Origin: Iocasia fonsfrigidae
Lineage (GTDB): Bacteria > Bacillota > Halanaerobiia > Halanaerobiales > DTU029
Length of the DNA stretch: 64,000 nucleotides
Direction: 5' to 3'
Assembly (NCBI RefSeq): GCF_017751145.1
Contig: NZ_CP046640.1
Coordinates: forward strand, 1,406,137 to 1,470,136
The position numbers and the translations under genes are program-made. Position 1 is the stretch's first letter, and each line of letters begins with the position of its first letter. The notes below the pieces were generated by a model. It saw only the letters and a program-made list of their open reading frames with translations. It had not been told where the DNA came from and searched no databases. This document shows positions 5,144 to 23,131 of the stretch, piece by piece.

Positions 5144-6121
5144 ATGAAAAAAATTGCTTTTATACCTAGTAGAGTATTTTATAATAATAGTTTGTTTAAT
5201 CTAGAGAATAAAACATTAAATCGGGATAATGTATTAATGCCTTTTTATATACTGAAGAATAGGTTGCAAGAAATGAATATTGATTTAAATACTATTGACT
5301 TATATAGTGATTATAAAAAATTAGATGCCGTTTTCTTTTTGAATTTAAATATAAATGAAATCAAAAAATGCCAGGCAAATGGTTTAGGTAATAAGTTAAT
5401 ATATATAATGTTAGAACCGCCTGTAGTAAGAGCAGAAAATTCTATAGAGGTTTTAAAAAAAATGGAGAATACTTTTAAATATATAATGACCTGGCAGGAT
5501 GATTTAATAGATAATAGAAAATATATTAAAATAAATTATCCAGAATACTTTGGGGAAGTAAATATTCAAAAGGTAAATTTTGAAAATAAAAAACTCTTAA
5601 CAAATATATCAGGGTACAAATTTTCAACACATCCTGATGAGTTATATAGTAAAAGATTAGAAGTTATAGAGTTTTTTGAAGAAAAATACTCTAATAATTT
5701 TGATTTTTACGGATTTGGTTGGGAAAGAGCTTTAAAAATGTATAAGAATTATCATGGAAGGGTTGAAGATAAAATAAAAACTTATAAAAAATATAAGTTT
5801 GCTTTGTCTTTTGAAAATATGAGGAATATTAATGGTTATATTACTGAAAAAATATTTGACTGTTTTAAAGCTAGAGTAGTTCCTATATATTGGGGTGCTA
5901 ATAATATTGAAGAATTTATTCCTAAAGAATGTTTTATTGATTATCGGAAGTTTATGGATGTTGAGAAGTTATATAAATATATATCGAATGTAAATAAAGA
6001 TATTTATAATCAGTATTTAAGAAATATTGAAAAATATTTAATTTCGGATGAAATTAAACAATTTAATAGTGAAAGTTTTTCTAATAAAATTATAGAAGTT
6101 ATAAATCTTATTGAAAGATAA
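5144..6121 (+). CDS. Glycosyltransferase family 10 (alpha-1,3/4-fucosyltransferase-like)
   Basis: The conserved GT10 donor-binding region is clear around residues 220-255: FALSFENM, GYITEKIFDCF and ARVVPIYWGA. These motifs bind the GDP-fucose phosphates in Helicobacter-type FucT enzymes. The N-terminal half (acceptor domain) is divergent, as is usual. At 325 residues it is in the family range, without C-terminal heptad repeats. Its last 20 codons are duplicated downstream of the adjacent IS66 element because the 337-base repeat that flanks the element begins inside this gene. The coding sequence itself is intact. Confidence 0.9.
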   Translation: MKKIAFIPSRVFYNNSLFNLENKTLNRDNVLMPFYILKNRLQEMNIDLNTIDLYSDYKKLDAVFFLNLNINEIKKCQANGLGNKLIYIMLEPPVVRAENSIEVLKKMENTFKYIMTWQDDLIDNRKYIKINYPEYFGEVNIQKVNFENKKLLTNISGYKFSTHPDELYSKRLEVIEFFEEKYSNNFDFYGFGWERALKMYKNYHGRVEDKIKTYKKYKFALSFENMRNINGYITEKIFDCFKARVVPIYWGANNIEEFIPKECFIDYRKFMDVEKLYKYISNVNKDIYNQYLRNIEKYLISDEIKQFNSESFSNKIIEVINLIER

Positions 6122-6397
6122 AAAAAGTGATGTTTTAAGATAATAATTTATGTAACGAGGAATCTTCTCTGGGGATTTTAATCTCCTTATCCAGAAGAGA
6201 TTCCTTATTTATTTTGTAAACGTGTTCTTTATATTCAGGCTAGATAAAGCTAAAAAAGAAGAATACTTTGATGTAAAAATTACCATGGGCGAGGATATAA
6301 TATAAATCACCTCATGGAAGATGCTCGCTTTATTCAATATGTTGATCTCTATGCTAGACTATTATCATTTAGGAAAAGTTAATTTTACATCTGAATG
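6061..6397 (+). repeat. 337-base direct repeat, left copy flanking IS66
   Basis: By eye identical to 8889-9225. It starts inside the GT10 gene and ends exactly at the left terminus of the IS66 element. It contains the GT10 stop codon, a terminator-like hairpin and a decayed coding relic (from about 6289) that is also seen near 13.2 kb. Confidence 0.95.
6158..6205 (+). terminator. Terminator-like hairpin after the GT10 gene
   Basis: The outer arms AGGAATCT and AGATTCCT pair, an inner GGGGAT pairs with ATCTCC, and a T-rich tail follows. A second identical copy lies in the right-hand 337-base repeat at about 8986-9033. Confidence 0.6.
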
Positions 6398-6447
6398 GTA
6401 AGCGTCAAAACGTCCCCACCTGGAAAAATTGAGGACATTATGATAGG

Positions 6448-8043
6448 CTAATTCTTATGAGGAATCCTGCATTCTTCCGGAATAGATTGAGACCAAGGTA
6501 ATAATTCATCCAATTCATCTATATTTTGTAGATCAATGTTGGGTAGTTTCTCAAAAAGATATTTTAGATAAAAGAATGGTACTAAGTTGTTTGCTTTGGC
6601 GGTCTCTATGATACTGTAAGTAATGGCACTGGCTGTAGCTCCTTTTACCGACTTGGAAAATAGAAAGTTCTTTCTCCCAATAACAAAGGGCTTGATTGCT
6701 CTTTCTGCCCGATTATTACTGATCTCTAGTCTACCATCCAGGAGAAAGGCTTCTAGTTTAGGCCATTGATTGAGACAATATTTAATAGCTTTGCTGAGAC
6801 CACTTTTAGGTAAAGTCTGTTGTTCCTTGATTTTTAGCCATGACAAAAAGGCCTCCAGAACTGGTTTGCTTTGTTCAAGGCGTTTTTGATATCTTTCTTC
6901 AGCTGATAAGTCTTTTAAGTCCCGTTCAATCTGGAAGAGTCGATTGCAGAAATTCAGACCTTCCTCAGCATTAGTTTTTAAGTGAACAGAGCCTTTAGGT
7001 AATGCCTTTAAGGCATCTGTGAAACCACGTCTAGCGTGAGCAAAACATCCGAGCTGGGTGACGTCCTGAACACTATTGTACCCAGCATAGCCATCGGTTT
7101 GAAGAAACCCACTGAATCCAGTTAAGAATTTCTTCGGATGTTCATTAGCCCTGGAAGGTTGATATTCATATAAGTAGATCGGTGGACTGGAAACTCCAGT
7201 AGCATAGAGCCACATATATGATTTGCTTTTAGCTGCTTTACCTTTTTCAGATAAAACCTGAAGTGTAGTTTCATCAGCATGTACGATATCTTCTTTTAAT
7301 AAATATTCATATATTCTATCATATAGATAGTTAAGCCAGTTGTTGGCTCCATGGATTACCCAGTTAGCCAGATTTTGACGGGATAGCTCAATGCCAAAAT
7401 TCTTAAATTGTTTCTCCTGTCTGTAAAGAGGTACTGCTTGAGAATATTTGGTATCCATGATATATGCCAGTAACGATGGAGAGAGAAAACTCCCTTTTAA
7501 AACTGGATTAGGCATAGGAGCAGTAATTACTGGAGTTGTGATATTTTCCTTTTCGCAATTTCTACAGGCATAAACATCACGAACATGTTCAACAACCTTA
7601 ACCTGAGCAGGAATAATCTTTAATTCTTTTCTAATTTCCTTACTCATGACATGAAGTTGCTTACCACATTGCGGACAGATCTGCTCAGCTTCATCTAGAT
7701 GATATTCAATGACTTCAACAGGGAGATCTTCGAAGGACTTTTTCTTTTTGTTTTTGCCCTTACGTCTTTTATATGTAATCTCCTCGAGTTCAGGTTCTTT
7801 GAGACTGACCTTAGCTTCCTGTTCAGCCTCATTGAAAATTGATAACTGATTAGAATTAAATTTTTCACTAGAAGCACCAAATCGTCTTTGTTGGTTTAAG
7901 CGAAATTGCTCCTCATACCAGTTTAATTTAGCTGTCAATTCTTCAATTTGTTGAGCCTGTCTTGCAATTTTATCTTCTAAAGATAGCTCTTGATTTTCTT
8001 CTTTATTAACTTGTATAATCGTTGATTTATCAGTAGTTTTCAT
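6448..8043 (-). CDS. tnpC: IS66 transposase TnpC (DDE)
   Basis: The 531-residue catalytic transposase of IS66. A leucine-rich coiled coil (EDKIARQAQQIEELTAKL) opens the protein. A zinc-binding CPQC and CRNC pair lies near residues 140-185, and the DDE core is represented by HADETTLQ, LQTDGYAGY and NNRAERAIKPF. Full length and no internal stops suggest function. It is the last gene of the element's operon, about 100 bases downstream of tnpB. Confidence 0.97.
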   Translation of the reverse strand: MKTTDKSTIIQVNKEENQELSLEDKIARQAQQIEELTAKLNWYEEQFRLNQQRRFGASSEKFNSNQLSIFNEAEQEAKVSLKEPELEEITYKRRKGKNKKKKSFEDLPVEVIEYHLDEAEQICPQCGKQLHVMSKEIRKELKIIPAQVKVVEHVRDVYACRNCEKENITTPVITAPMPNPVLKGSFLSPSLLAYIMDTKYSQAVPLYRQEKQFKNFGIELSRQNLANWVIHGANNWLNYLYDRIYEYLLKEDIVHADETTLQVLSEKGKAAKSKSYMWLYATGVSSPPIYLYEYQPSRANEHPKKFLTGFSGFLQTDGYAGYNSVQDVTQLGCFAHARRGFTDALKALPKGSVHLKTNAEEGLNFCNRLFQIERDLKDLSAEERYQKRLEQSKPVLEAFLSWLKIKEQQTLPKSGLSKAIKYCLNQWPKLEAFLLDGRLEISNNRAERAIKPFVIGRKNFLFSKSVKGATASAITYSIIETAKANNLVPFFYLKYLFEKLPNIDLQNIDELDELLPWSQSIPEECRIPHKN

Positions 8044-8141
8044 AAGTCTATTATATCATTTTTAGGAGAAAAAAGATACTAAAATTAAGCATAAAAGCTC
8101 TGGTTTTACAATGTTTTTGAGGCTTTTGTCTAAAGTTTGTT

Positions 8142-8498
8142 TTAGATGATTATTCTTTCTTTAACGGCAGGATGAGCACCTTTTTGATGAATAGATAAAC
8201 CATCAAGTAACCACCTGAATTGTCTTTCATCAATCATTACTGTAGAGCCAGTAGTACCATCAGGCCATCTGAATCTACTTTTTTCCAGGCGTTTGTAGTG
8301 TAACCAGAAACCATCATTATCCCATTCCAAAATCTTGAGTTTGTCCTGCTTTCTGTTACAGAAGACAAAGAGGTCATGAGAAAAGGGATTGAGCTTAAAG
8401 CTCTCCTGAACTATTAAGGATAGGCCATTGATTGATTTCCTAAGATCTGTAGGCCCCAGGGATAAATATACTTTATTGATATGATGCTGATTTAACAT
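8142..8498 (-). CDS. tnpB: IS66 accessory protein TnpB
   Basis: A 118-residue protein with the IS66 Orf2 pattern: LGPTDLRKSINGL near the start, LFVFCNRKQDKLKIL in the middle, and a LEKSRFRWPDG segment. It is required for IS66 transposition in studied members, with an unknown biochemical role. Its start overlaps the end of tnpA by 7 bases, which indicates coupled translation. Confidence 0.96.
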   Translation of the reverse strand: MLNQHHINKVYLSLGPTDLRKSINGLSLIVQESFKLNPFSHDLFVFCNRKQDKLKILEWDNDGFWLHYKRLEKSRFRWPDGTTGSTVMIDERQFRWLLDGLSIHQKGAHPAVKERIII

Positions 8499-8818
8499 TG
8501 TTCTTTAAGAATCCTGATAAGAGTTTCAAAAGTATTAGAATCAAAACCTGGAACGACCTCTATGATCGCCTGACCTATAGTTATTTTTATGGTTTTAGTT
8601 TCAGAATTGTTATTTTCTGCTCGGGCAGGGAATACAGCTGTCCATTTAGTTTGACTAGATTCCTGTTCTTTCTTTTCCTTATTAAATTTATGAATATAGT
8701 ATCTTAGAGAATTAATGTTTAGACCATTCTCTTCACACCATTTGGCAGCAGTTAAACTACTTGCTTTGTAATCCTGGATTCTTTCAATCCAGATTTCACG
8801 TTTGTTATTCATCTTCAA
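8492..8818 (-). CDS. tnpA: IS66 accessory protein TnpA
   Basis: A 108-residue helix-turn-helix protein of the IS66 Orf1 type: IERIQDYKASSLTAAKWCEENG followed by INSLRYYIHKFNK is the DNA-binding part, and the C-terminal ITIGQAIIEVVPGFD segment is characteristic. A GAGGTTATTTGAAG leader precedes the ATG. It is the first gene of the element, about 70 bases inside the right end. Confidence 0.94.
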   Translation of the reverse strand: MKMNNKREIWIERIQDYKASSLTAAKWCEENGLNINSLRYYIHKFNKEKKEQESSQTKWTAVFPARAENNNSETKTIKITIGQAIIEVVPGFDSNTFETLIRILKEQC

Positions 8819-8888: not shown

Positions 8889-9225
8889 ATTTAATAGTGA
8901 AAGTTTTTCTAATAAAATTATAGAAGTTATAAATCTTATTGAAAGATAAAAAAAGTGATGTTTTAAGATAATAATTTATGTAACGAGGAATCTTCTCTGG
9001 GGATTTTAATCTCCTTATCCAGAAGAGATTCCTTATTTATTTTGTAAACGTGTTCTTTATATTCAGGCTAGATAAAGCTAAAAAAGAAGAATACTTTGAT
9101 GTAAAAATTACCATGGGCGAGGATATAATATAAATCACCTCATGGAAGATGCTCGCTTTATTCAATATGTTGATCTCTATGCTAGACTATTATCATTTAG
9201 GAAAAGTTAATTTTACATCTGAATG
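8889..9225 (+). repeat. 337-base direct repeat, right copy flanking IS66
   Basis: Begins immediately after the IS66 right end with the last 20 codons of the GT10 gene, and ends where the original chromosomal sequence continues. By eye it is identical to the left copy throughout, which points to a recent event. Confidence 0.95.
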
Positions 9226-9441
9226 TAAGGTAGAAGCAACCCTACCGTTTTCAAGCTGATTTTGTAACAAATTTTTATATCTTAACATAACATATAATAT
9301 AATAAGGGTCTAACTTCGAGATTATATAAGGGGTGATGAGATACGAAAGCCAATAAGCAGCTCTATTAAATACTAAAATACTTTAATAAATTAAATTCAC
9401 CAATATAATTTTTTAAATTATGGGAAGGGTTGGAGATAGCT
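9118..9441 (+). repeat. Duplicated legB upstream region with coding relic (first copy)
   Basis: Matches 13202-13493 with substitutions and small indels. The first part (to about 9262) is a decayed version of a 46-codon frame that is still open in the second copy. The rest is a leader that ends at a broken legB start. The TAACTTCGAGATTATATAAGG and ACGAAAGCCAAT blocks are kept in both. This marks the left edge of an old cluster duplication. Confidence 0.75.
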
Positions 9442-9540
9442 GTGAAAAAAGTTCTGGTAACAGGGGCAGGGGGTTTATAGGAAGCTATTTGTAGCAGGAT
9501 TACTTAAAGAGGGTAATAGTATAAAGAGCCTTTGATGGTT
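9442..9540 (+). pseudogene. legB 5' relic
   Basis: Starts with GTGAAAAAAGTTCTGGTAAC, which matches the first codons of the intact legB at 13494. It then has small deletions and a substitution that break the GxxGxxG region, and similarity stops after about 33 codons. The segment to 9620 before ptmE shows nothing else. It shows that the first nonulosonate gene set once began with its own legB. Confidence 0.85.
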
Positions 9541-9620
9541 CTACCAGAAACTTTGTGCAGGTAAAATATATTGACAATTATTCAAGTATTAAATGACTTC
9601 AATCTTAAAGAGGGATATAG

Positions 9621-10670
9621 ATGAATATACGAGATCTATTTATAAATGAAGGGATTACAATCAAAGAGGCTATAAAAAAAATAGATGAAACTGCCAATAA
9701 AATTCTATTAATAACCAGGGATACAGTATTAAAGGGTGTAATAACTGATGGAGATATCAGGCGCTGGATTTTGATGAATGGAGATTTAAATGAAAAAGTT
9801 AAATTAATAATGAACCATAATCCAGTCTATCTTATGTGTGGAGAAGAGTCTAAAGCTAAAGACATCATGCGGAAAAAACTGATTGAAGCAATACCTGTAG
9901 TAAATGAAAAAAAGGAAGTTATAAATATAATACTCTGGAAGGATCTTTATGATAAAGAATTAAAATCTTATAATTATATAAGCAGTCCGGTTGTAATAAT
10001 GGCCGGTGGAAAAGGAACAAGGCTGGATCCTATTACCAAAGTATTCCCCAAACCTCTGGTTCCAATAGGGAATATACCAGTAGTTGAAAGGATAATAAAT
10101 AGATTTATAGATTTTGGTTGTGAAAAATTTTATCTTACCATTAATTATAAAAAGAATTTAATTAAAGCTTATTTTAATGATTTAGATAAAAATTATGAAA
10201 TTGAATATATTGAAGAAGAAAAACCATTAGGAACAGCTGGAAGCCTATATTTGCTAAAAGACAAAATAAAGGAACCCTTTTTTGTAAGCAATTGTGATAT
10301 TTTAATAGGTGGTAATTACTATAAAATGCTTAAATTTCATCAAGAAAATAAAAATAAGATTACAGTTATAACTTCTCTTAAATTTTTTACTGTTCCTTAT
10401 GGAGTAATAGAATTAAATGAGGAAAGCATTATCAGGGAAATAAGTGAAAAACCTGAATTTGATTTTTTAATAAATACAGGAATGTATATCTTAGAACCAG
10501 AAACACTAACTGATATACCTGTCAATAAATTTTATCATCTCACTGATTTGATAAAAAATTATATAAAAAAAGGGGAAAGGGTTGGAGCATATCCTGTAAG
10601 TGAAGAGTCATGGCTTGATATGGGCCAATTTAAAGAAATGAAAAAGATGCTGGAAAGCTTAGGTTTTTAG
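9621..10670 (+). CDS. ptmE: CBS-domain sugar-1-phosphate nucleotidyltransferase, PtmE-like (glucosamine-1-phosphate guanylyltransferase)
   Basis: Two CBS motifs occupy about residues 1-115 (LKGVITDGDIRRWIL; EAIPVVNEKKEV). The nucleotidyltransferase domain follows, with MAGGKGTRLDPITKVFPKPL at about 125-144. Campylobacter PtmE has this layout and makes GDP-glucosamine for the GDP-linked legionaminic acid route. Length (349 aa) fits. The gene is followed with overlap by a hybrid relic and then neuC. A frameshifted relic of its 3' end lies after legC at about 15.8 kb, so this is the only working copy in the window. Guanylyl rather than cytidylyl specificity is inference from the context. Confidence 0.87.
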   Translation: MNIRDLFINEGITIKEAIKKIDETANKILLITRDTVLKGVITDGDIRRWILMNGDLNEKVKLIMNHNPVYLMCGEESKAKDIMRKKLIEAIPVVNEKKEVINIILWKDLYDKELKSYNYISSPVVIMAGGKGTRLDPITKVFPKPLVPIGNIPVVERIINRFIDFGCEKFYLTINYKKNLIKAYFNDLDKNYEIEYIEEEKPLGTAGSLYLLKDKIKEPFFVSNCDILIGGNYYKMLKFHQENKNKITVITSLKFFTVPYGVIELNEESIIREISEKPEFDFLINTGMYILEPETLTDIPVNKFYHLTDLIKNYIKKGERVGAYPVSEESWLDMGQFKEMKKMLESLGF

Positions 10671-10984
10671 TGATGGAAGATATCTTGCTAATAGGCGGAG
10701 GAAAATATTGTAAAAGTGTAATAGATACAATAACTCAAGGAGATTTATTTATAAAGGAAGTGTTATCAATGTTTCAAGATAAAGAAAGATTAATTGTTAA
10801 TCATTATAGAATTGCAAGAAAAAGTATAGTTACAAAAAGCAACACAAGAAAAAGGGAAGTTTTTTCAGAGAATAATTTAGCTGTTAAAAGGCCGGGAAAC
10901 GGAATCTCACCAATGAGATGGGATAAAATGATTAAAGATATTGCTAAAAGAAATTATGAAGAAGATGAGCTGATAGAGGGATGA
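10670..10984 (+). pseudogene. Hybrid relic: start of a legH-like acetyltransferase joined to the end of neuB
   Basis: The first about 21 residues (MMEDILLIGGGKYCKSVID) look like the N-terminus of PglD/LegH-type sugar acetyltransferases. From about residue 48, ARKSIVTKSNTRKREVF and KRPGNGISPMRWDKMI match the SAF domain at the C-terminus of the intact NeuB at 16795-17793. A deletion has therefore fused the start of legH to the end of neuB. The frame remains open for 104 codons and overlaps neuC by ATGA, so a small SAF-like protein may still be made. The intact genes would encode about 200 and 330 residues. Confidence 0.85.
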
Positions 10985-12147
10985 AAAAGGTCTGTTTAAT
11001 TACTAGCACCAGAGCAGAATATGGTCTGTTAAGTCCTCTGATGGAAAGTATAAAGAGTGTTAGAGAATTACAACTGCAGTTAATAGTAACAGGAATGCAT
11101 TTATCACCAGAGTTTGGCTTGACATATCAAGAAATAATTGAAGATGGTTACAGGATTGATGAAAAAATAGAAATTCTATTGAGCTCAGATACTCCCATAG
11201 GAATCTCCAAATCTATGGGACTTACTTTAATAAGTTTTTCAGAAACTTATCAGAGATTAAAACCTGATCTGATAGTTGTCCTTGGTGATAGATATGAGAT
11301 ATTTGCAGCAGTTAGTGCAGCCTGTATAACAAAAATTCCAGTTGCTCATTTACATGGTGGGGAAACTACCGAAGGTGCCTTTGATGAAGCCTTTAGACAT
11401 TCTATTACAAAGATGAGCTATTTGCATTTTACCAGTACTAGTGAATATAGAAAAAGAGTAATCCAGCTGGGTGAACATCCTAATAGAGTTTTTAATGTAG
11501 GAGCAATAGGAATTGAAAATATTAAAAAACTAAAACTCCTTTCAAAAAAAGAATTAGAAAAAGATATTAATTTTAAGTTTGGGGAAAGAACTATATTAGT
11601 GACATTTCATTCAGTAACCCTGGAAGAAAATACTTCAAGGGAGCAATTCGAAAATATTTTAGATGCTTTTGATGAAATAGATAATTTAAAAATAATATTT
11701 ACTAAAACAAATTCAGATACAGATGGAAGAATTATTAATAAAATGATAGATAAGTATGTCAGAAAAAACACAGAAAAAGCAATTGGTTTTACATCTATGG
11801 GCCAAATCAGATATTTAAGCACTATGCAATATGTTGATGCTGTTGTAGGTAATTCTTCCAGTGGTATTATTGAAGCACCTACATTTAAGGTTCCTACAGT
11901 AAATATAGGTGATAGACAAAAGGGTAGAATACAGGCTGAGACAGTAATCAATTGTAAGCCAATAAAAAATGATATAATAGCAGTTTTGAAGAAAGCCCTA
12001 TCTGATGATTATAAAGAGGAGATTAGATATGCTAAAAATCCCTATGGAGATGGAAAGGTATCAGATAAAATTATTAATGTAATAACAGAATGGTCATTTA
12101 AAAATATAGATCTTAAAAAGAAATTTTATAATGTTACTATTTATTGA
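10981..12147 (+). CDS. neuC: UDP/GDP-HexNAc 2-epimerase, hydrolysing (NeuC/LegG-like)
   Basis: Removes the nucleotide and epimerises C2 to release a free N-acyl-mannosamine-type sugar, the substrate of NeuB. STRAEYGLLSPL (residues 9-20), GDRYEIFAA, HGGETTEGAFDEAFRHSI and the late VVGNSSSGIIEAPTF are the conserved UDP-GlcNAc 2-epimerase motifs. Length (388 aa) is full. It overlaps the hybrid relic by four bases. A 5' relic of another neuC copy follows neuB at 17.8 kb, so this gene must serve both gene sets. Whether it acts on 2,4-diamino (legionaminic) or plain GlcNAc substrate is inferred from its neighbours. Confidence 0.9.
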   Translation: MKKVCLITSTRAEYGLLSPLMESIKSVRELQLQLIVTGMHLSPEFGLTYQEIIEDGYRIDEKIEILLSSDTPIGISKSMGLTLISFSETYQRLKPDLIVVLGDRYEIFAAVSAACITKIPVAHLHGGETTEGAFDEAFRHSITKMSYLHFTSTSEYRKRVIQLGEHPNRVFNVGAIGIENIKKLKLLSKKELEKDINFKFGERTILVTFHSVTLEENTSREQFENILDAFDEIDNLKIIFTKTNSDTDGRIINKMIDKYVRKNTEKAIGFTSMGQIRYLSTMQYVDAVVGNSSSGIIEAPTFKVPTVNIGDRQKGRIQAETVINCKPIKNDIIAVLKKALSDDYKEEIRYAKNPYGDGKVSDKIINVITEWSFKNIDLKKKFYNVTIY

Positions 12148-12194
12148 ATACATTTCATATAAGTAGCTTAATAATTTTTTTTAATAAATAATCT

Positions 12195-12232
12195 CTACTG
12201 TAAAGTGAAATTATTTTTGCACTTTACAGTAG
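12195..12232. terminator. Bidirectional terminator after neuC
   Basis: A perfect 13-bp stem (12195-12207 with 12220-12232) with A- and T-rich flanks. Nearly the same cassette, including its leader, recurs at 18860-18899 at the end of the second gene set. Confidence 0.88.
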
Positions 12233-12240
12233 GATTATTT

Positions 12241-12280
12241 TTAATGTTTCTCTATTTTTTCCAATATTTCTGCCCCTACC
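12241..12280 (-). pseudogene. Fragment similar to the B12 radical SAM gene
   Basis: About 34 bases closely match 19288-19321 inside the radical SAM gene (minus-strand reading around NIGENRETL). It abuts the 3' end of the MAF-like gene. It is too short to act and marks a recombination join. Confidence 0.4.
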
Positions 12281-13066: not shown

Positions 13067-13201
13067 TTTTTTCCTCCCTTTTTGTGAGTTTACTGTAATG
13101 ATGTTTTTCATCACTAATATTTATTAATTATTATATTTACTTTTAACTAATTATGTTCATAATTTTGTCGAATATTTTGCCATATCTTACTGTAAATTAC
13201 T

Positions 13202-13342
13202 ATGGGTGAAGAGATTAACCATCCAATGGAAAATGCCCACTTTATTCAATATGTTGATCTCTATGCTAACTACTATCATTTAGGAAGAGTTAATCTTACA
13301 CTTGAGTGTAAGGCTGAAGTAGCCCTACTGTTTTCAAGCTGA
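13202..13342 (+). pseudogene. 46-codon relic frame, tail of an unknown gene
   Basis: Open from ATG to TGA (MENAHFIQYVDLYANYYHLG is its central part). Two more decayed versions lie at about 6289-6397 and 9118-9262. There is no ribosome site. The protein is not recognised. It is more likely the 3' end of a lost gene upstream of legB than a functional peptide. Confidence 0.5.
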
Positions 13343-13493
13343 TTTTGTAACAAATTTTATATCTTGACATAACATATAAGTAATAAAGGTCTAACTTCGA
13401 GATTATATAAGGTAATGAGACACGAAAGCCAATTTAATAAATTAAATTTCCCAATATAATTATCTAAATCATGGGAAAGGTTGGAGAATAGCT
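13343..13493 (+). repeat. Duplicated legB upstream region (second copy)
   Basis: The leader of the intact legB, matching the first copy before 9442. It contains TTGACA and AT-rich runs but no -10 hexamer at a good distance, so I do not assign a promoter. Confidence 0.7.
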
Positions 13494-14474
13494 ATGAAAA
13501 AAGTTTTGGTAACAGGAGCAGAGGGTTTTATAGGAAGCCATTTAGTAGAAGGATTACTTAAAGAGGGTAATAGTATAAGAGCCTTTGTATATTATAATTC
13601 TTTTAACACATGGGGATGGTTAGATACATTTCCAAAAGGCAAATTAAAGAAAATAGAAATATTTACTGGAGATATAAGAGATCCAAATGGAGTGCGAAAA
13701 GCGTTTCAAGATATTGACGAAGTATATCATTTAGCCGCTTTGATTGCAATACCCTTTAGTTATTATTCTCCAGATTCATATATTGATACTAATATAAAAG
13801 GAACATTAAACATATTACAAGCAGCAAGGGATTTTGGAACAAGTAGAGTTTTAATTACCTCAACATCAGAAGTATATGGGTCAGCAAGATATGTACCGAT
13901 AGATGAAAAACACCCATTTCAAGGACAATCGCCATATTCAGCAACTAAAATAGGAGCAGATAGATTAGCTGAATCTTTTTATAGAAGTTTTAGTCTGCCA
14001 ATAACAATAGTAAGGCCATTTAATACATATGGCCCAAGACAGTCAGCAAGGGCGGTTATACCAACTATAATAATGCAATTGTTGGCCGGAAAAGAAAAAA
14101 TAAAACTGGGTTCTCTGACCCCAACTAGAGATTTTAATTATGTTAAGGATACAGTACAGGGTTTTATAGAAATTGCAAAATCAGAAAAGACGATTGGAGA
14201 AGAGATAAATATAGCTTCTCAGGAGGAAATATCAATAGGAGATTTAGCGGGAGAGTTAGTAAATCAAATAAATTCAGCTGCTGAAATAGTGTGTGATCAA
14301 GAAAGGATGAGGCCAGAAAAAAGTGAAGTAAATAGATTACTTGGCGCGAATGAAAAAATAAAGAGGCTAACAAAATGGAAGCCGGCTTATACATTCAAAG
14401 AAGGATTAGCTGAAACAATAAGCTGGATAAAAGACAATTTAGATAAGTATAAAGTTGATATCTATAATCTGTAA
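13494..14474 (+). CDS. legB: NAD-dependent nucleotide-sugar 4,6-dehydratase (LegB-like)
   Basis: A short-chain dehydrogenase/reductase acting on a nucleotide-HexNAc, giving the 4-keto-6-deoxy sugar that LegC aminates. GAEGFIGSH near the start binds NAD, STSEVYG carries the serine/threonine pair, and SPYSATK (about residue 147) supplies the catalytic Tyr and Lys. Length (326 aa) is normal. Its gene order with legC and neuB follows the legionaminic acid cluster of Campylobacter. AAGGTTGGAGA precedes the ATG. It is the working copy; a 5' relic lies before ptmE. Confidence 0.9.
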   Translation: MKKVLVTGAEGFIGSHLVEGLLKEGNSIRAFVYYNSFNTWGWLDTFPKGKLKKIEIFTGDIRDPNGVRKAFQDIDEVYHLAALIAIPFSYYSPDSYIDTNIKGTLNILQAARDFGTSRVLITSTSEVYGSARYVPIDEKHPFQGQSPYSATKIGADRLAESFYRSFSLPITIVRPFNTYGPRQSARAVIPTIIMQLLAGKEKIKLGSLTPTRDFNYVKDTVQGFIEIAKSEKTIGEEINIASQEEISIGDLAGELVNQINSAAEIVCDQERMRPEKSEVNRLLGANEKIKRLTKWKPAYTFKEGLAETISWIKDNLDKYKVDIYNL

Positions 14475-14579
14475 CTACTCAGAAGTCAGCATTAAAAAAC
14501 TAGTATATTTATTCGTTCTTACATTTGTTATTGAATTCTGAATAATTGAGGAGAAACTATGATCTAAAGGGGAATTATT

Positions 14580-15767
14580 ATGGAGAAATTGATACCACTA
14601 TCAGTGCCTAATTTTACAGGTAAAGAACTTGAATATGTGACCAGGGCTGTAGAAACAGAATGGGTATCAACTGGGGGAAGATTTATAAAAGAATTTGAAG
14701 AAAAAATAGCTAAATATTTGAAAATTAAAAAGGCTGTTGCCTGTCAAAGTGGTACTGGGGCTCTTCATTTAGCTTTAAGGCTTTCAGGAGTTGGAGCAGA
14801 ACATGAAGTAATAGTACCTACACTTACCTTTATAGCTGCAGTTAATCCTGTTAAATATCAAGGAGCAGAGCCAGTATTTATGGACTGTGATGATACTCTA
14901 AATATGGATTTAGATAAATTAGAGGGGTTTTTTCAAAAAGAGTGCTGTTTAACTAAAGAAGGCTTAATTAATAAAAGAACCAATAAAACTATAAAAGCTG
15001 TGGTAATAGTACATATATTTGGAAACATGATTGATATGGAAAGAATAATGAAAATAGCTAGGAAATACAAATTAAAGGTTATAGAGGATGCAACTGAAGC
15101 ATTAGGTTCGTACTGCACAACAGGAGAATACTCTGGTAAGTTTGCAGGAACCATAGGAGACTTTGGAGCATATTCTTTTAATGGAAACAAGATAATTACA
15201 ACGGGTGGAGGAGGAATGCTTGTAGCTAAAGATATGGTTTTAGTTGAGAAAGCAAAATACTTGTCAGCTCAAGCAAAAGACGATCCCTTATATTATATAC
15301 ATGATGAAATAGGTTATAACTATAGAATGACAAATTTACAGGCAGCTCTTGGTATTGCTCAGTTGGAACAATTGGAAGAATTAATTGAGATAAAAATAAA
15401 AAACTATGGCCTTTATGAAAAAGAGATTCAAAAAATAGAGGGATTAGATTTATTAAGATTTAATAAAGGAACGAGATCAAATTATTGGTTTTATTCTTTA
15501 ATGATAGATAAAGAAAAATACGGGTTTAATAGAGATGAATTATTAAAGAAATTATATCAAAGAAATATCCAGACTAGACCGATCTGGGGACTTATTCATG
15601 AACAAAAGCCATACCTAAAAGATCAGAGCTACAAAGTTAAAAGAGCTAAGTATTATATAGAAAGAGTTTTGAATATACCTTGCAGTACAAATTTAGATAA
15701 ACAAGATATATTGACAGTTATTAATGCATTAAAGGATTTTAAATCTCAAAAAGAGAGATATAGTTGA
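14580..15767 (+). CDS. legC: PLP-dependent 4-aminotransferase (LegC-like)
   Basis: Transfers an amino group to C4 of the 4-keto sugar made by LegB. The PLP lysine is in SFNGNKIITTGGGG (about residue 204), and the EDATEAL segment holds the PLP-contacting Asp. The protein starts LIPLSVPNFTGKELEYV, which is typical of the LegC subfamily, and its 395 residues are the usual length. AAAGGGGAA precedes the ATG. It follows legB by 105 bases and is followed by a relic of ptmE, so the ancestral order was legB-legC-ptmE. Confidence 0.92.
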   Translation: MEKLIPLSVPNFTGKELEYVTRAVETEWVSTGGRFIKEFEEKIAKYLKIKKAVACQSGTGALHLALRLSGVGAEHEVIVPTLTFIAAVNPVKYQGAEPVFMDCDDTLNMDLDKLEGFFQKECCLTKEGLINKRTNKTIKAVVIVHIFGNMIDMERIMKIARKYKLKVIEDATEALGSYCTTGEYSGKFAGTIGDFGAYSFNGNKIITTGGGGMLVAKDMVLVEKAKYLSAQAKDDPLYYIHDEIGYNYRMTNLQAALGIAQLEQLEELIEIKIKNYGLYEKEIQKIEGLDLLRFNKGTRSNYWFYSLMIDKEKYGFNRDELLKKLYQRNIQTRPIWGLIHEQKPYLKDQSYKVKRAKYYIERVLNIPCSTNLDKQDILTVINALKDFKSQKERYS

Positions 15768-15888
15768 ATGTACAAGATATATATAAGGGAGAACCTGTAG
15801 GAGTATATCCTGTTAGCAAAGAGTATGGCTTGACATGGGGCAATTCAAGGAAATGAAAAAAATGCTTAAAAGATTAGATTTAAAGTAA
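15768..15888 (+). pseudogene. ptmE 3' relic
   Basis: Reading with one base restored gives KGEPVGVYPVSKE, then WLDMGQFKEMKKMLKRL, which matches the last 35 residues of the intact PtmE at 9621-10670. The rest of the gene has been deleted against the end of legC. It proves a second ptmE once lay here. Confidence 0.88.
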
Positions 15889-15899
15889 AGGAGTAATAA

Positions 15900-16742
15900 A
15901 TGGTGAATAATATATTTACGATAGGCTATTTTGCAGACGGTAAATGGGCTCATGAAGCATTCAAATTGTTAATAAATGATAAAAACATTGAAATAAAATT
16001 TATTTGTGTTAGATATGAAACCACAGATCTGACATTAAAGAACTTTGCTAAAAAATATAATATCGACTATTTAAAGCATAAAGACATTAACTCAAAAGAA
16101 TTTTTAAATCAGCTAAAGAAATATAAGTGTGACCTGTTTGTATCAATGTCTTTTAATCAGATTTTTAAAAAAGAGATCATAAATACTCCTGAATTTAAAA
16201 CCATTAATTGTCACGCTGGTAAATTACCTTTTTACAGAGGAAGAAACATATTAAATTGGGTGTTAATAAATGATGAAAAAGAGTTTGGAATCACAGTGCA
16301 CTATGTTGATGAAGGAATTGATACAGGAGACATAGTATTACAGGAAACTTATCCTATAACAGATGAGGATGATTATTCAACATTGTTATCTAGAGCATAT
16401 ACTGAGTGTGCAAACATACTTTATAAAGCTATAAAGATTATACAAAGCCAGGATATTAAGCTAATGAAGCAAACAGATATACATCCAGTAGGTTTCTATT
16501 GTGGAAAAAGGAAAGAGGGCGACGAGATAATAGATTGGAATCAAAATAGCAGAGAATTGTTTAATTTTATCAGAGCATTATGTGAGCCAGGGCCAATGGC
16601 CAGGAGTACGCTAAGGGATAAAGTGATAAAAATAAACAAATCAAAGCTTGTTAAAAATGCACCTAACTATAAAGGGATTGTTGGACAAATAGTCGGTAAA
16701 AACCAAAGCGGATTTATAGTAAAAACAAAGATTCGACATTAG
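15900..16742 (+). CDS. Sugar N-formyltransferase, frameshifted near the C-terminus
   Basis: A methionyl-tRNA-formyltransferase-fold enzyme that should transfer a formyl group from N10-formyl-tetrahydrofolate to a sugar amine. The catalytic NCHAGKLPFYRG (Asn and His) and GIDTGDI (Asp) are present, and a C-terminal OB-like domain follows. The frame stops at 16742, but shifting by one base at about 16730 continues as DSTLEIIEYEYAEKIRIGDR and ends with TGA at 16796-16798, overlapping the GTG start of neuB. The original gene was therefore about 299 codons and coupled to neuB; the current form lacks about 20 residues. It takes the place where legH would stand, suggesting an N-formyl instead of N-acetyl product. 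Confidence 0.85.
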   Translation: MVNNIFTIGYFADGKWAHEAFKLLINDKNIEIKFICVRYETTDLTLKNFAKKYNIDYLKHKDINSKEFLNQLKKYKCDLFVSMSFNQIFKKEIINTPEFKTINCHAGKLPFYRGRNILNWVLINDEKEFGITVHYVDEGIDTGDIVLQETYPITDEDDYSTLLSRAYTECANILYKAIKIIQSQDIKLMKQTDIHPVGFYCGKRKEGDEIIDWNQNSRELFNFIRALCEPGPMARSTLRDKVIKINKSKLVKNAPNYKGIVGQIVGKNQSGFIVKTKIRH

Positions 16743-16794
16743 AAATAATAGAATATGAGTATGCTGAAAAAATAAGAATAGGGGATCGGTTAGC

Positions 16795-17793
16795 GTGAAA
16801 AAAACCCTTATAATAGCAGAAGCAGGTGTTAATCACAATGGTTCATTAGAAATAGCTAAACAGCTTGTAGATAAAGCCAAAGAAGCTGGCGCAGATATAG
16901 TTAAGTTTCAGACATTTAAAGCTGAAAAACTAGTCTCAAAATATGCTGGAAAGGCAGAATATCAAAAACAAACAACGGATGCTTGTGAAAATCAATATAA
17001 TATGATTAAAAAATTAGAATTAGACTTAAACATGCATAAAGAGTTAATAGAATATTGTAAGTTAAAAGAGATAAATTGTTTATCATCCCCCTTCGATATA
17101 GATAGTATAAAACTTCTAACTAAATTTGGCATTGACATTATTAAAATTCCTTCTGGAGAAATAACCAACCTACCCTATTTAAAAGAAATTGGAAAGTTAA
17201 AGAAGCGAGTTATTTTATCAACGGGAATGTCAACACTTGGAGAAATTGAAAAGGCGTTAAATATTTTGATTGTAAATGGAACAAATGATGTTGTTGTTTT
17301 ACATTGTAATACAGAGTACCCAACCCCTATGAAGGATGTTAACTTAAGAGCTATGAGAACTATTAAAGAAGCTTTTAAAATAGAAGTAGGATACTCAGAC
17401 CATACATTAGGAATAGAGGTTCCAATAGCTGCAGTGGTAATGGGTGCATCTATTATAGAGAAGCATTTCACATTAGATAAAAGAATGGCAGGTCCTGACC
17501 ACAGAGCGAGCTTAGAGCCCCATGAATTTAAAGCAATGGTTAATGCTATTAGAAATATCGAAAAGGCATTGGGAAATGGAATAAAGAAGCCATCGGACTC
17601 CGAGCTTCCAAATATTAATGTTGTAAGAAAAAGTATAGTTGCAAAATGCAATATAAAAAAGGGTGAAACTCTTTCAAAGAGTAATATAACTGTAAAGAGA
17701 CCAGGAAATGGTATATCACCAATGAGGTGGGATGAAATGATTGGTAAGGCCGCAAAAAGAGATTATTTGGCAGACGAGATGATAGAGATATAA
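16795..17793 (+). CDS. neuB: Nonulosonic acid synthase (NeuB/LegI-like)
   Basis: Condenses phosphoenolpyruvate with a six-carbon N-acyl sugar to make a nine-carbon sialic-type acid. IAEAGVNHNGS at the start, VKFQTFKAEKL, the STGMST loop and GPDHRASLEP are the conserved TIM-barrel features, and the C-terminal SAF domain ends with KRPGNGISPM. The 332 residues are full length. The GTG start overlaps the restored stop of the formyltransferase. It is followed by a neuC relic and then the CMP-synthetase. A second NeuB at 22088 is only distantly alike. Confidence 0.94.
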   Translation: MKKTLIIAEAGVNHNGSLEIAKQLVDKAKEAGADIVKFQTFKAEKLVSKYAGKAEYQKQTTDACENQYNMIKKLELDLNMHKELIEYCKLKEINCLSSPFDIDSIKLLTKFGIDIIKIPSGEITNLPYLKEIGKLKKRVILSTGMSTLGEIEKALNILIVNGTNDVVVLHCNTEYPTPMKDVNLRAMRTIKEAFKIEVGYSDHTLGIEVPIAAVVMGASIIEKHFTLDKRMAGPDHRASLEPHEFKAMVNAIRNIEKALGNGIKKPSDSELPNINVVRKSIVAKCNIKKGETLSKSNITVKRPGNGISPMRWDEMIGKAAKRDYLADEMIEI

Positions 17794-17890
17794 AAAAATT
17801 GTGTGATTACTGGTACCAGGGCAGAATATGGACTGTTAAGACCTTTGATGAAAAGAATAGAGAGCTACAAAGACCTTAAGTTGCAGTTAA
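17794..17890 (+). pseudogene. neuC 5' relic
   Basis: Restoring a couple of bases lost near the start gives ITGTRAEYGLLRPLMKRI and DLKLQLI, matching the N-terminus of the intact NeuC at 10981. Similarity ends at about 17890. This completes the ancestral order neuB-neuC-neuA. Confidence 0.87.
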
Positions 17891-17945
17891 TATCCCCAAA
17901 AACAAATTGCAATATTTTGAAATAAATTTAAGGGGGAAAGGTTTC

Positions 17946-18638
17946 ATGAGTAAAATCCTAGCACTTATACCTGCGAGAGCGGGTTCTAAGGGAGTAAAAA
18001 GTAAAAACATTAGAGAATTAGCTGGAAAACCACTTATAGCATATACTATTATGGAAGCTATTAAGAGTAATATATTTGAAGATATTATTGTATCTACTGA
18101 CTCAGAAAAAATAGCAGATATAGCAAGAAAATATGGTGCAAATGTGCCTTTCTTAAGACCCAAAAAATTCGCTTTAGATGATTCGTCTACAATTGATGTA
18201 ATTATACACTGTTTTAATTTTATGAGAAATATAGGGAAAGAATATCAGGAAGTTATATTACTTCAACCAACATCTCCATTAAGAAGGGCTCATCATATAA
18301 AAGAAGCTTATCAGCTTTTTAATAGTAAAAATGCTGATTTTATTATAAGTGTATGCAAGTGTGGACATCCACCACTTTGGGCTAATACAATGGATAAGGA
18401 TTTAAAAATGGATAATTTCATTCGAAAAGAAGTAAAAAATATGAGGAGACAAGATTTACCCCAATTTTATCAAATAAATGGTGCTTTATATTTAGCAAAA
18501 GTCGATAAACTGATTGAAGAAAAAGGTTTTTTAGGTAAAAATAGCTATGCTTATATAATGAGTAGGGAAAATTCAATAGACATAGATACCGAAATAGATT
18601 TTAGATTTTGTGAAGTTATTATGGGAGCAGTTGTGTAG
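17946..18638 (+). CDS. neuA: CMP-nonulosonic acid synthetase (NeuA/LegF-like)
   Basis: Activates the nonulosonic acid with CTP. IPARAGSKGVKSKNI near the start is the nucleotide-binding signature, and LLQPTSPLRRAHHI plus the late IDIDTEIDF are typical of the CMP-sialic acid synthetase family. Length is 230 residues when begun at the ATG behind AAGGGGGAAAGG; the frame extends 13 codons further upstream without support. It is the only CMP-synthetase seen, so it probably serves both NeuB proteins. Substrate specificity (legionaminic, pseudaminic or a formylated form) cannot be fixed from sequence. Confidence 0.92.
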   Translation: MSKILALIPARAGSKGVKSKNIRELAGKPLIAYTIMEAIKSNIFEDIIVSTDSEKIADIARKYGANVPFLRPKKFALDDSSTIDVIIHCFNFMRNIGKEYQEVILLQPTSPLRRAHHIKEAYQLFNSKNADFIISVCKCGHPPLWANTMDKDLKMDNFIRKEVKNMRRQDLPQFYQINGALYLAKVDKLIEEKGFLGKNSYAYIMSRENSIDIDTEIDFRFCEVIMGAVV

Positions 18639-18718
18639 CCCAATTTTTGGATATTTTAATAACTTCTCATATATTATAAATTATTTAAAGTGGGGGACAT
18701 TGAATAGAAAAACATTTA

Positions 18719-18829
18719 GAAGATGATATAAATTTATTAACTTATGGTGATGGTGTTACTGATATTGATATAAATGAAGTTATAGAGTTTCATAAAAGAG
18801 CAGGTAAGACAGTAACATTTATCATATAA
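18719..18829 (+). pseudogene. Glucose-1-phosphate cytidylyltransferase (rfbF) fragment
   Basis: The frame reads INLLTYGDGVTDIDI followed by EVIEFHKRAGKTVT, the central motif of RfbF enzymes that make CDP-glucose. Both ends of the gene are missing. It suggests a lost CDP-dideoxysugar branch. Confidence 0.8.
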
Positions 18830-18859
18830 AGAGCTTAATAATTTTTTTTAATAAATAAT

Positions 18860-18899
18860 CCTACTGTAAAGTGAAATTATTTTTATACTTTACAGTAGG
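18860..18899. terminator. Bidirectional terminator between convergent genes
   Basis: A perfect 13-bp stem (18860-18872 with 18887-18899), near-copy of the one after neuC, including the AT-rich leader upstream. Confidence 0.88.
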
Positions 18900-18943
18900 A
18901 TTATCTTTTTGCGCTTTCTATTTAATCCAGTCTCTATATAGAA

Positions 18944-22087: not shown

Positions 22088-23131
22088 ATGAATAAATTAA
22101 GAATAGGTAACAGAATAATAGGGGATGGATATAAACCATTTATTATAGCTGAGATAGGTATAAATCATGAAGGAGATTTTAGTAAGGCAAAAACTATGAT
22201 TAAAGATGCTTATGAGAGTGGTGCTGAGTGTGTGAAGTTTCAAATGCATATTATAGAAGATGAAATGACTAAGTCTGCTAAAAATGTAATACCAGGTAAT
22301 GCCGATGAATCCATCTGGGAGATAATGGATAGGTGTTCATTAACAAAGGAGGAACATGTTAAATTAAAAGAGTATGTTGAAGAATTGGGTATGATATATT
22401 TATGTACTCCATTTTCTAGAGCAGCAGTAGATGTATTAGAAGAAATGAAAGTTTTGGCCTATAAAATAGGATCAGGTGAATGTAATAATTATCCTTTAAT
22501 TGAACATATATCTTCATTTGGTAGACCAGTTATTTTAAGTACGGGGATGAATAATATAGAAAGTATATTAAAAAGTGTGGATATTTTAGAAAAATATGGG
22601 ATTGAGTATTCTTTATTACATTGTACATCAATGTACCCTACTCCTTATGATAAGGTTAGATTAGGAGGAATAGATGATTTAAGGACTAATTTTCCTAATG
22701 CTATTTTAGGATTAAGTGATCATTCATTGGGTAATTATACAGCTTTTGCGGCAGTTGCTCTGGGGGCTGCAATTATTGAAAAGCATTTTACTTCTAATAA
22801 GGCCTGGTCAGGACCTGATGTACCAATATCACTTAATTCCAAGGAACTTTATGATTTAATAATTGGGTGTGAAGCAATATATCAAGCAATTGGTGGTAAG
22901 AAAGAAATATTACAGGACGAAAAGCCAACTATAGATTTTGCATATGCCTGTGTTGTAGCTATAGATGATATAAAAGAAGGAGAAAAATTATCTAAAGAAA
23001 ACATATGGGTTAAAAGACCCGGAACTGGAGAGATAAAGGCCAAAGATTTTAACAATTTACTAGGCAAGCAAGTTAATCAAGATATATCAAGGGATATACA
23101 ATTAGAATGGAGTATGATTAAAGATGATTAG
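22088..23131 (+). CDS. Second N-acylneuraminate/nonulosonic acid synthase (NeuB family)
   Basis: FIIAEIGINHEGDFSKA at the start, VKFQMHIIEDEM, STGMNN and the C-terminal SAF domain (VKRPGTGEIKAKD) mark a full-length NeuB of 347 residues. It differs clearly from the 16795 copy and has the N-acetylneuraminate-synthase-like opening GDGYKPFIIAEIG, so it may make another nonulosonic acid. The ATG follows AAGGAGATT. A 39-codon neuC relic overlaps its 3' end, so a neuB-neuC operon stood here. The free-sugar substrate would now have to come from the neuC at 10981. Confidence 0.92.
   Translation: MNKLRIGNRIIGDGYKPFIIAEIGINHEGDFSKAKTMIKDAYESGAECVKFQMHIIEDEMTKSAKNVIPGNADESIWEIMDRCSLTKEEHVKLKEYVEELGMIYLCTPFSRAAVDVLEEMKVLAYKIGSGECNNYPLIEHISSFGRPVILSTGMNNIESILKSVDILEKYGIEYSLLHCTSMYPTPYDKVRLGGIDDLRTNFPNAILGLSDHSLGNYTAFAAVALGAAIIEKHFTSNKAWSGPDVPISLNSKELYDLIIGCEAIYQAIGGKKEILQDEKPTIDFAYACVVAIDDIKEGEKLSKENIWVKRPGTGEIKAKDFNNLLGKQVNQDISRDIQLEWSMIKDD

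Follow-up and report, generated by a model that had tools for sequence, protein, structure and literature searches.

LegH is the 4-amino N-acetyltransferase of the legionaminic acid (Leg) pathway (PMC13317340). In the window, which is the whole stretch of 64,000 nucleotides analyzed here (C1:1,406,137-1,470,136 of the single-contig, 3.93-Mb genome of Iocasia fonsfrigidae), a Leg operon carries a formyltransferase gene in the LegH position. What does this enzyme do in the slot of an acetyltransferase, and which nonulosonic acid (NulO) would the operon provide?

A formyltransferase in the LegH position

The open reading frame begins with ATG behind an AAAGGAG ribosome site at 15887-15893. It is flanked by the genes of LegC and NeuB, and a 3' scrap of ptmE also lies between them (Table 1). 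Pfam searches of the protein encoded at 15900-16742 matched Formyl_trans_N (PF00551) at 1.9e-24, with 86.9 bits for a cut-off of 26.1, and Formyl_trans_C (PF02911) at 2.3e-10, with 41 bits for a cut-off of 21.1. Neither PglD_N nor hexapeptide repeats were found in it by Pfam, which excludes it from the LegH family. N103, H105 and D141, the catalytic triad of the superfamily, are invariant across the alignment of 29 family sequences. The formyltransferase fold with an intact Asn-His-Asp triad, which the initial annotation had read from the letters, is therefore confirmed. Three further formyltransferases are encoded in the genome: PurN, Fmt and one inside a second Leg cluster. As Fmt and PurN have genes of their own, the housekeeping roles in formyl transfer are covered elsewhere.

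The family profile matches ArnA (7e-43), WbkC (2e-29) and, over the core only, PseJ (2e-17). Among the raw matches, Fmt structures, with the same fold, rank first, and the models align to the folds of ArnA and WbkC. The formyltransferase domain of ArnA, a UDP-Ara4N 4-N-formyltransferase, has the same two-domain fold and Asn-His-Asp triad and acts on a 4-amino nucleotide sugar, as is proposed for the slot enzyme. However, the identity is 22-25%, the substrate of ArnA is a pentose, and ArnA is fused to a decarboxylase; the window protein lacks the dehydrogenase domain and fails the ArnA equivalog NF005998 (133.9 bits, cut-off 777). The GDP-perosamine N-formyltransferase WbkC (PDB 5vyr, 5vyu) formylates a GDP-4-amino-4,6-dideoxyhexose, which comes nearest to the substrate proposed here. 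The window-family model aligns to WbkC over 239-246 residues (Z ~25), whereas WbkC is ~24% identical, has a structure of ~245 residues and modifies a manno sugar for the O-antigen. PseJ makes a 4-formamido intermediate and would thus work alike in the sister pathway. It is named in the PDB (6ci2, 6ci4) as the formyltransferase of the pseudaminic acid (Pse) pathway, but it has 192-217 residues, matches in the catalytic core only and belongs to another pathway with another stereochemistry. LegH, a PglD-family enzyme, shares with the slot enzyme the operon slot and the proposed acceptor nitrogen, but it has an unrelated hexapeptide fold and takes its acyl group from acetyl-CoA instead of formyl-THF.

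Table 1 Features of the two Leg operon copies in the window.
Feature	Position	Strand	Evidence
Copy A upstream region and legB 5' scrap	9105..9534	+	81% DNA identity to 13194-13587
Copy A legC 3' scrap, directly 5' of ptmE	9563..9620	+	DNA identity to copy B
PtmE-like CBS and nucleotidyltransferase protein, intact	9621..10670	+	PF00483 3e-37, CBS; 59% to L057 PtmE
Copy A LegH slot: LegH N-terminus (~20-28 residues) fused to NeuB C-terminus	10670..10984	+
NeuC/LegG hydrolysing 2-epimerase, intact	10981..12147	+	TIGR03568 5.6e-146
Copy A downstream block	12150..12263	+	87% DNA identity to 18815-18929
LegB 4,6-dehydratase, intact	13494..14474	+	TIGR04180 2.9e-154, above cut-off
LegC aminotransferase (4-amino sugar), intact	14580..15767	+	TIGR04181 8e-145, above cut-off
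Copy B ptmE 3' scrap	15768..15892	+	15777-15892 78% DNA identity to 10561-10677; PtmE matches
Slot formyltransferase, frame 0 part	15900..16742	+	280 codons, catalytic N103, H105, D141
Remainder of formyltransferase	16721..16798	+	-1 frame, TGA 16796-16798 overlapping neuB start
NeuB/LegI NulO synthase, intact	16795..17793	+	TIGR03569 1.7e-154, above cut-off
Copy B neuC 5' scrap	17794..17907	+	L180 NeuC residues 3-40, 55%, E 3e-9
CMP-NulO synthetase, NeuA/LegF-type, intact	17949..18638	+	PF02348 4.8e-25; 53% to L057 NeuA
Copy B downstream block	18815..18929	+	87% DNA identity to 12150-12263

Exchange of LegH and the formyltransferase among Leg operons

Relatives were searched in one genome per species, and sampling by phylum added three loci. 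In the scan of 84,980 species, 29 loci encode relatives at 42-70% identity, and the next proteins are Fmt-like at 35% or less. The relatives come from several bacterial phyla and one Asgard archaeon. The plasmid and phage collections yielded Fmt-like matches only, all below 36% identity to the slot formyltransferase. A phylogenetic tree that admitted only formyltransferases of sufficient length, with PseJ and the Halorubrum enzyme left out, placed 32 slot enzymes, including that of the window, in a single clade (support 99).

LegH and the slot enzyme take the same position, x, in five operon layouts: B-C-E-[x]-I-G-A, B-C-G-I-[x]-E-A, B-C-[x]-I-G-E-A, A-I-G-[x]-E-B-C and B-C-[x]-E, where B is LegB or PglF and C, E, I, G and A are LegC, PtmE, NeuB, NeuC and NeuA. 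The layout B-C-E-[x]-I-G-A holds the slot enzyme in loci L057, L059 and L070 and LegH in L180, L187 and L198. In A-I-G-[x]-E-B-C, the slot is occupied by the formyltransferase in L083 and by LegH in L195, two loci that are sisters in the NeuB tree (support 100). L055 and L175, which are also NeuB-tree sisters (support 95), differ at the slot as well. The hexapeptide gene that L083 carries away from the slot, which resembles one just 5' of the window (see below), was not counted as LegH, because L195 has such a gene besides its slot LegH. At 9470-9793 of L055, right after the slot formyltransferase, lies a truncated LegH-like hexapeptide gene of 107 aa, perhaps a second LegH remnant.

Slot formyltransferase alone was found in 26 clusters, LegH alone in 36, both in two (L062 and L069) and neither in seven. 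Fisher's test gives 7.6e-11 for this distribution, a value that pools formyltransferase-anchored and LegC-anchored samples of related clusters and ignores their kinship. The well-supported branches provide four independent pairs, mostly in the expected direction (median p 0.125). In the LegC-anchored set, full-length LegH is present in 34 of the 41 complete clusters that lack the slot enzyme (35 with the L179 fusion) and in none of the three that have it, the window included; the LegH calls come here from BLAST with a small set of references, so where LegH is missing from a single cluster, a divergent gene may have been overlooked. L174, L177 and L178 lack LegH, and their only similar gene is a distant match of PseH type. 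The fusion in L179 (G160) is a 561-aa open reading frame that apparently joins a hexapeptide LegH to NeuB.

Two diverged copies of one operon in the window

The Leg cluster of the window consists of two adjacent, diverged copies of one operon, A (9105-12263) and B (13194-18929), with reciprocal gene loss. Besides the blocks given in Table 1, collinear DNA pairs 9563-9642 with 15703-15785 (77% identity) and 10812-11085 with 17621-17892 (74%). Copy A retains ptmE and neuC, and copy B retains legB, legC, the formyltransferase (apart from the frame break described below), neuB and neuA. Each pathway gene is thus intact exactly once across both copies; the other copy has a scrap of it or lacks it.

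The homology of the two copies ends after ptmE, where copy A has a scrap of legH and copy B has the formyltransferase, up to whose ribosome site the ptmE scrap of copy B runs. Residues 1-20 of the full-length LegH of L180 match 10673-10732 at 70% (E 1e-5), and the PglD_N match of the scrap lies below the cut-off (E 5.7e-4). The frame then enters a 3' fragment of neuB, which matches the C-terminus of TIGR03569 at 1e-15. The intact form of copy B is likely visible in L057 and L058, which have the order legB-legC-ptmE-formyltransferase-neuB-neuC (with neuA in L057), and the LegH version of that operon is found in L180 as legB-legC-ptmE-legH-neuB-neuC-neuA. With the exchange seen in five layouts and again inside the window, the view that the formyltransferase between legC and neuB stands in the LegH position is strongly supported.

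A second Leg cluster and a second formyltransferase clade

According to the initial annotation, legH survives only as a scrap. This is true of copy A in the window, but the genome has an intact LegH at C1:3,782,420-3,783,058. It belongs to a second Leg cluster at C1:3.766-3.786 Mb (L045 1-20000, that is, G000 C1:3,766,000-3,785,999), in which a PglF-like dehydratase, LegC, LegH, the second formyltransferase, a PIG-L deacetylase, NeuB and NeuC follow one another. A separate LegH elsewhere in the genome had been named as evidence against an N-formyl product; it does exist, but in a cluster of another type. Since that cluster is a separate one of the PglF type, its LegH tells no more than that acetylation is possible elsewhere or in trans. 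The search for PIG-L genes in the genome gave a single one, next to the second formyltransferase, and none in the window cluster. Another candidate for LegH, a hexapeptide gene just 5' of the window (C1:1,404,759-1,405,379, 248 aa), was set aside as the PglD_N search did not retrieve it; the UDP-sugar dehydrogenase gene that comes next, inside the window, suggests by analogy another amino-sugar pathway.

The PIG-L-linked formyltransferases (FT2) form a separate clade (support 98), and the window enzyme falls outside it. FT2 accompanies LegH in L198, L203, L206 and L208; together with PIG-L, it accompanies the slot enzyme in L063, L066, L072, L075 (where the slot enzyme is damaged), L082 and L085. 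FT2 probably acts at the other nitrogen. On the simplest reading of these gene contents, LegH or the slot enzyme would acylate the nitrogen at C4 (N7 in the NulO), and at the C2 nitrogen (N5) the PIG-L deacetylase and FT2 would exchange acetyl for formyl. The 5-N-formyl-legionaminic acid of Halorubrum sp. PV6, whose Leg cluster has a predicted formyltransferase (HrrPV6_1050), fits the PIG-L/FT2 type; the doubly charged peptide masses given for it lie 151.0 apart, which amounts to 302 Da (PMC6137143). It differs from the slot system in that the formyl group is at N5 and LegH and a NeuD homolog are kept (PMC6137143).

Taken jointly, we consider it rather likely that LegH and the formyltransferase have replaced each other at this slot several times, also in the window, and that Leg clusters carry two interchangeable acyl modules, namely LegH or the slot enzyme at N7 and an optional PIG-L and FT2 pair at N5. 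If so, the clusters would provide Leg5Ac7Ac, Leg5Ac7Fo, Leg5Fo7Ac (the second cluster of this genome) and Leg5Fo7Fo (L066, L072 and L085).

A third formyltransferase group (~39% identity) lies beside PseI and PseG in genomes of the same order (L048 8768-9655 and L049 9859-10746) and is likely the Pse counterpart.

Proposed biosynthesis of 7-N-formyl legionaminic acid

The gene content of the window indicates a possible pathway. The PtmE-like enzyme, whose only intact gene in the window is that of copy A, is predicted to supply the sugar nucleotide, which would be GDP-type by analogy with Campylobacter. LegB and LegC would convert the nucleotide-linked GlcNAc to the 4-amino-4,6-dideoxy sugar. 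The slot enzyme, replacing LegH, would then move the formyl group from N10-formyl-tetrahydrofolate onto the 4-amino group, catalyzed by Asn-His-Asp. LegG would free the 2-acetamido-4-formamido-6-deoxy sugar, to which pyruvate would be added by LegI, and activation by LegF would yield CMP-Leg5Ac7Fo (7-N-formyl legionaminic acid) for surface glycans. As LegH is the 4-amino N-acetyltransferase and is replaced at its slot, Leg5Ac7Fo is the predicted product. The substrate, the regiochemistry and the product, like present activity, are predictions from gene context and homology; for the family as a whole, we consider it quite likely that the slot enzyme N-formylates the 4-amino group in place of LegH to give Leg5Ac7Fo. 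The N-formyl NulO suggested in the initial annotation gains independent support from the exchange at the LegH slot, both in the five layouts and in the window.

N-formylated NulOs are already known. Pse5Ac7Fo, a chemically demonstrated 7-formamido NulO, is reported from Pseudoalteromonas distincta KMM 638 (Muldoon 2001, as cited in PMC3210612) and has pseudaminic stereochemistry, whereas the sugar proposed here is legionaminic. 5-N-formyl-Leg (PMC6137143) and the formyltransferase named PseJ in the PDB are likewise known. In the mainly open-access literature searched, we found a formyl group of Leg only at N5 (Halorubrum, PMC6137143) and none at N7; nor did we find mention of Leg5Ac7Fo or 7-N-formyl-Leg, or of LegH being replaced by a formyltransferase. 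The family, the slot exchange and the prediction of Leg5Ac7Fo appear undescribed so far, and the chemistry itself is familiar. If the prediction is true, a common, previously unassigned enzyme family changes a known sugar pathway, and N-formylated legionaminic acid can be predicted from sequence in bacteria of many phyla and an Asgard archaeon. The recurrence of the replacement across phyla suggests an overlooked, widespread N-formylated surface sugar. Clusters now read as ordinary legionaminic acid clusters would have their surface sugar misassigned by one acyl group, with a mass signature of ~14.016 Da less per acetyl-to-formyl exchange.

Frame break near the 3' end of the formyltransferase gene

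The intact homolog of L057 (Alkaliphilus MAG, 301 aa) aligns by residues 4-279 to 15903-16730 in frame 0 (70%) and by residues 277-301, the true C-terminus, to 16721-16795 in the -1 frame (60%). The frame is lost near 16721-16730, and the -1 frame encodes 22 residues, DSTLEIIEYEYAEKIRIGDRLA, before the TGA, which overlaps the neuB GTG at 16795-16797. Such an overlap of stop and start codons is the usual sign of translational coupling. The alignment agrees with the one-base frameshift that had been placed near 16730 and with the ~22 codons gained on restoring the frame.

All 28 other aligned family members read through the end motif in a single frame. This terminal G-D/T-R-L motif is common to most relatives, and one Gly in it is conserved to at least 90%. 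The window protein, whose open frame is ~22 residues short, lacks the final β-strand and the nearly invariant Gly. The strand is located at 282-290 in the model of L057 and is absent from the model of the window protein, for which the confidence at the C-terminal end is 82-87, as compared with 95-97 for L057. The window enzyme does not show a complete C-terminal strand and G-D/T-R-L motif in one frame, as an intact family member would. As its end motif is present only in the -1 frame, the window gene is a broken or mis-sequenced family member. No unbroken close copy of it was found by a DNA search of 61 related genomes. Read in the shifted frame, the missing tail has hardly changed, and 280 open codons with the invariant residues persist together with the stop/start overlap. 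The break is therefore a very recent mutation or a sequencing or assembly error, as had been supposed at first reading, and we regard activity and inactivity of the enzyme in the sequenced strain as about equally probable.

Alternative explanations

A real inactivating mutation may have started the decay of the gene, in which case the cluster of this strain would yield no Leg or, by way of the second-cluster LegH, an acetylated one. This explanation applies to the strain, not to the family, and does not conflict with the replacement of LegH. The loss of the last strand and its Gly, a cassette rich in scraps and the presence of LegH elsewhere argue for decay; against these stand the 280 open codons with all invariant residues, the persistence of the 22-codon tail and of the overlap with neuB, and the intactness of every other pathway gene exactly once. 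In addition, the LegH of the second cluster may prefer a different nucleotide sugar, given that this cluster is of the PglF type. We consider such decay possible but somewhat doubtful. Programmed -1 frameshifting, which would yield a longer form next to the 280-aa protein, was rejected as extremely improbable: the -1 frame does continue the protein and the stretch is A-rich, but inspection by eye revealed no slippery heptamer of the canonical form X XXY YYZ in it, and none of the 28 aligned relatives needs a frameshift.

Could the formyltransferase instead act at the second nitrogen, carried by C2 in the hexosamine and by C5 in the NulO, or modify the NulO after its completion, as has been proposed for the 5-N-formyl-Leg of Halorubrum, with LegH working in trans? 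Formylation at C2 requires prior deacetylation, for which the window cluster has no PIG-L; moreover, it is the PIG-L-linked clade that accompanies LegH, and the slot clade that excludes it. We therefore regard action at the other nitrogen as unlikely, even with a demonstrated 5-N-formyl-Leg in Halorubrum, whose cluster has a candidate formyltransferase (PMC6137143), and with an intact LegH in the second cluster of this genome. A paralog of methionyl-tRNA formyltransferase that has no part in sugar synthesis is hardly credible. The best single-sequence PDB match is the Fmt of Bacillus anthracis, which has the same two-domain fold, but the window protein reaches 138.3 bits with TIGR00460 (equivalog cut-off 201.5), the genome has a separate Fmt, and the slot enzymes, which are linked to Leg operons, form a clade apart from Fmt. 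N-formylation of the 4-amino group thus remains the preferred role of the slot family.

Other features of the glycan region

A direct repeat of 342 bp (99.7% identity; 6061-6402 and 8889-9229) surrounds three minus-strand open reading frames and is related to the region 5' of the Leg cassettes. The three-gene block (6448-8818) resembles an IS66-type element, but the flanking repeat far exceeds a target duplication. Inside the glycan island, paralogous pairs at 20402-21446/23290-24333 and 12283-13079/24347-25129 share 79-80% DNA identity, with opposite orientations within each pair; two proteins tested from these pairs gave no Pfam match. A second, divergent NeuB-family gene at 22088-23131 is 37% identical to the Leg NeuB, has a DegT aminotransferase and a sugar epimerase nearby, and belongs to another sugar pathway.
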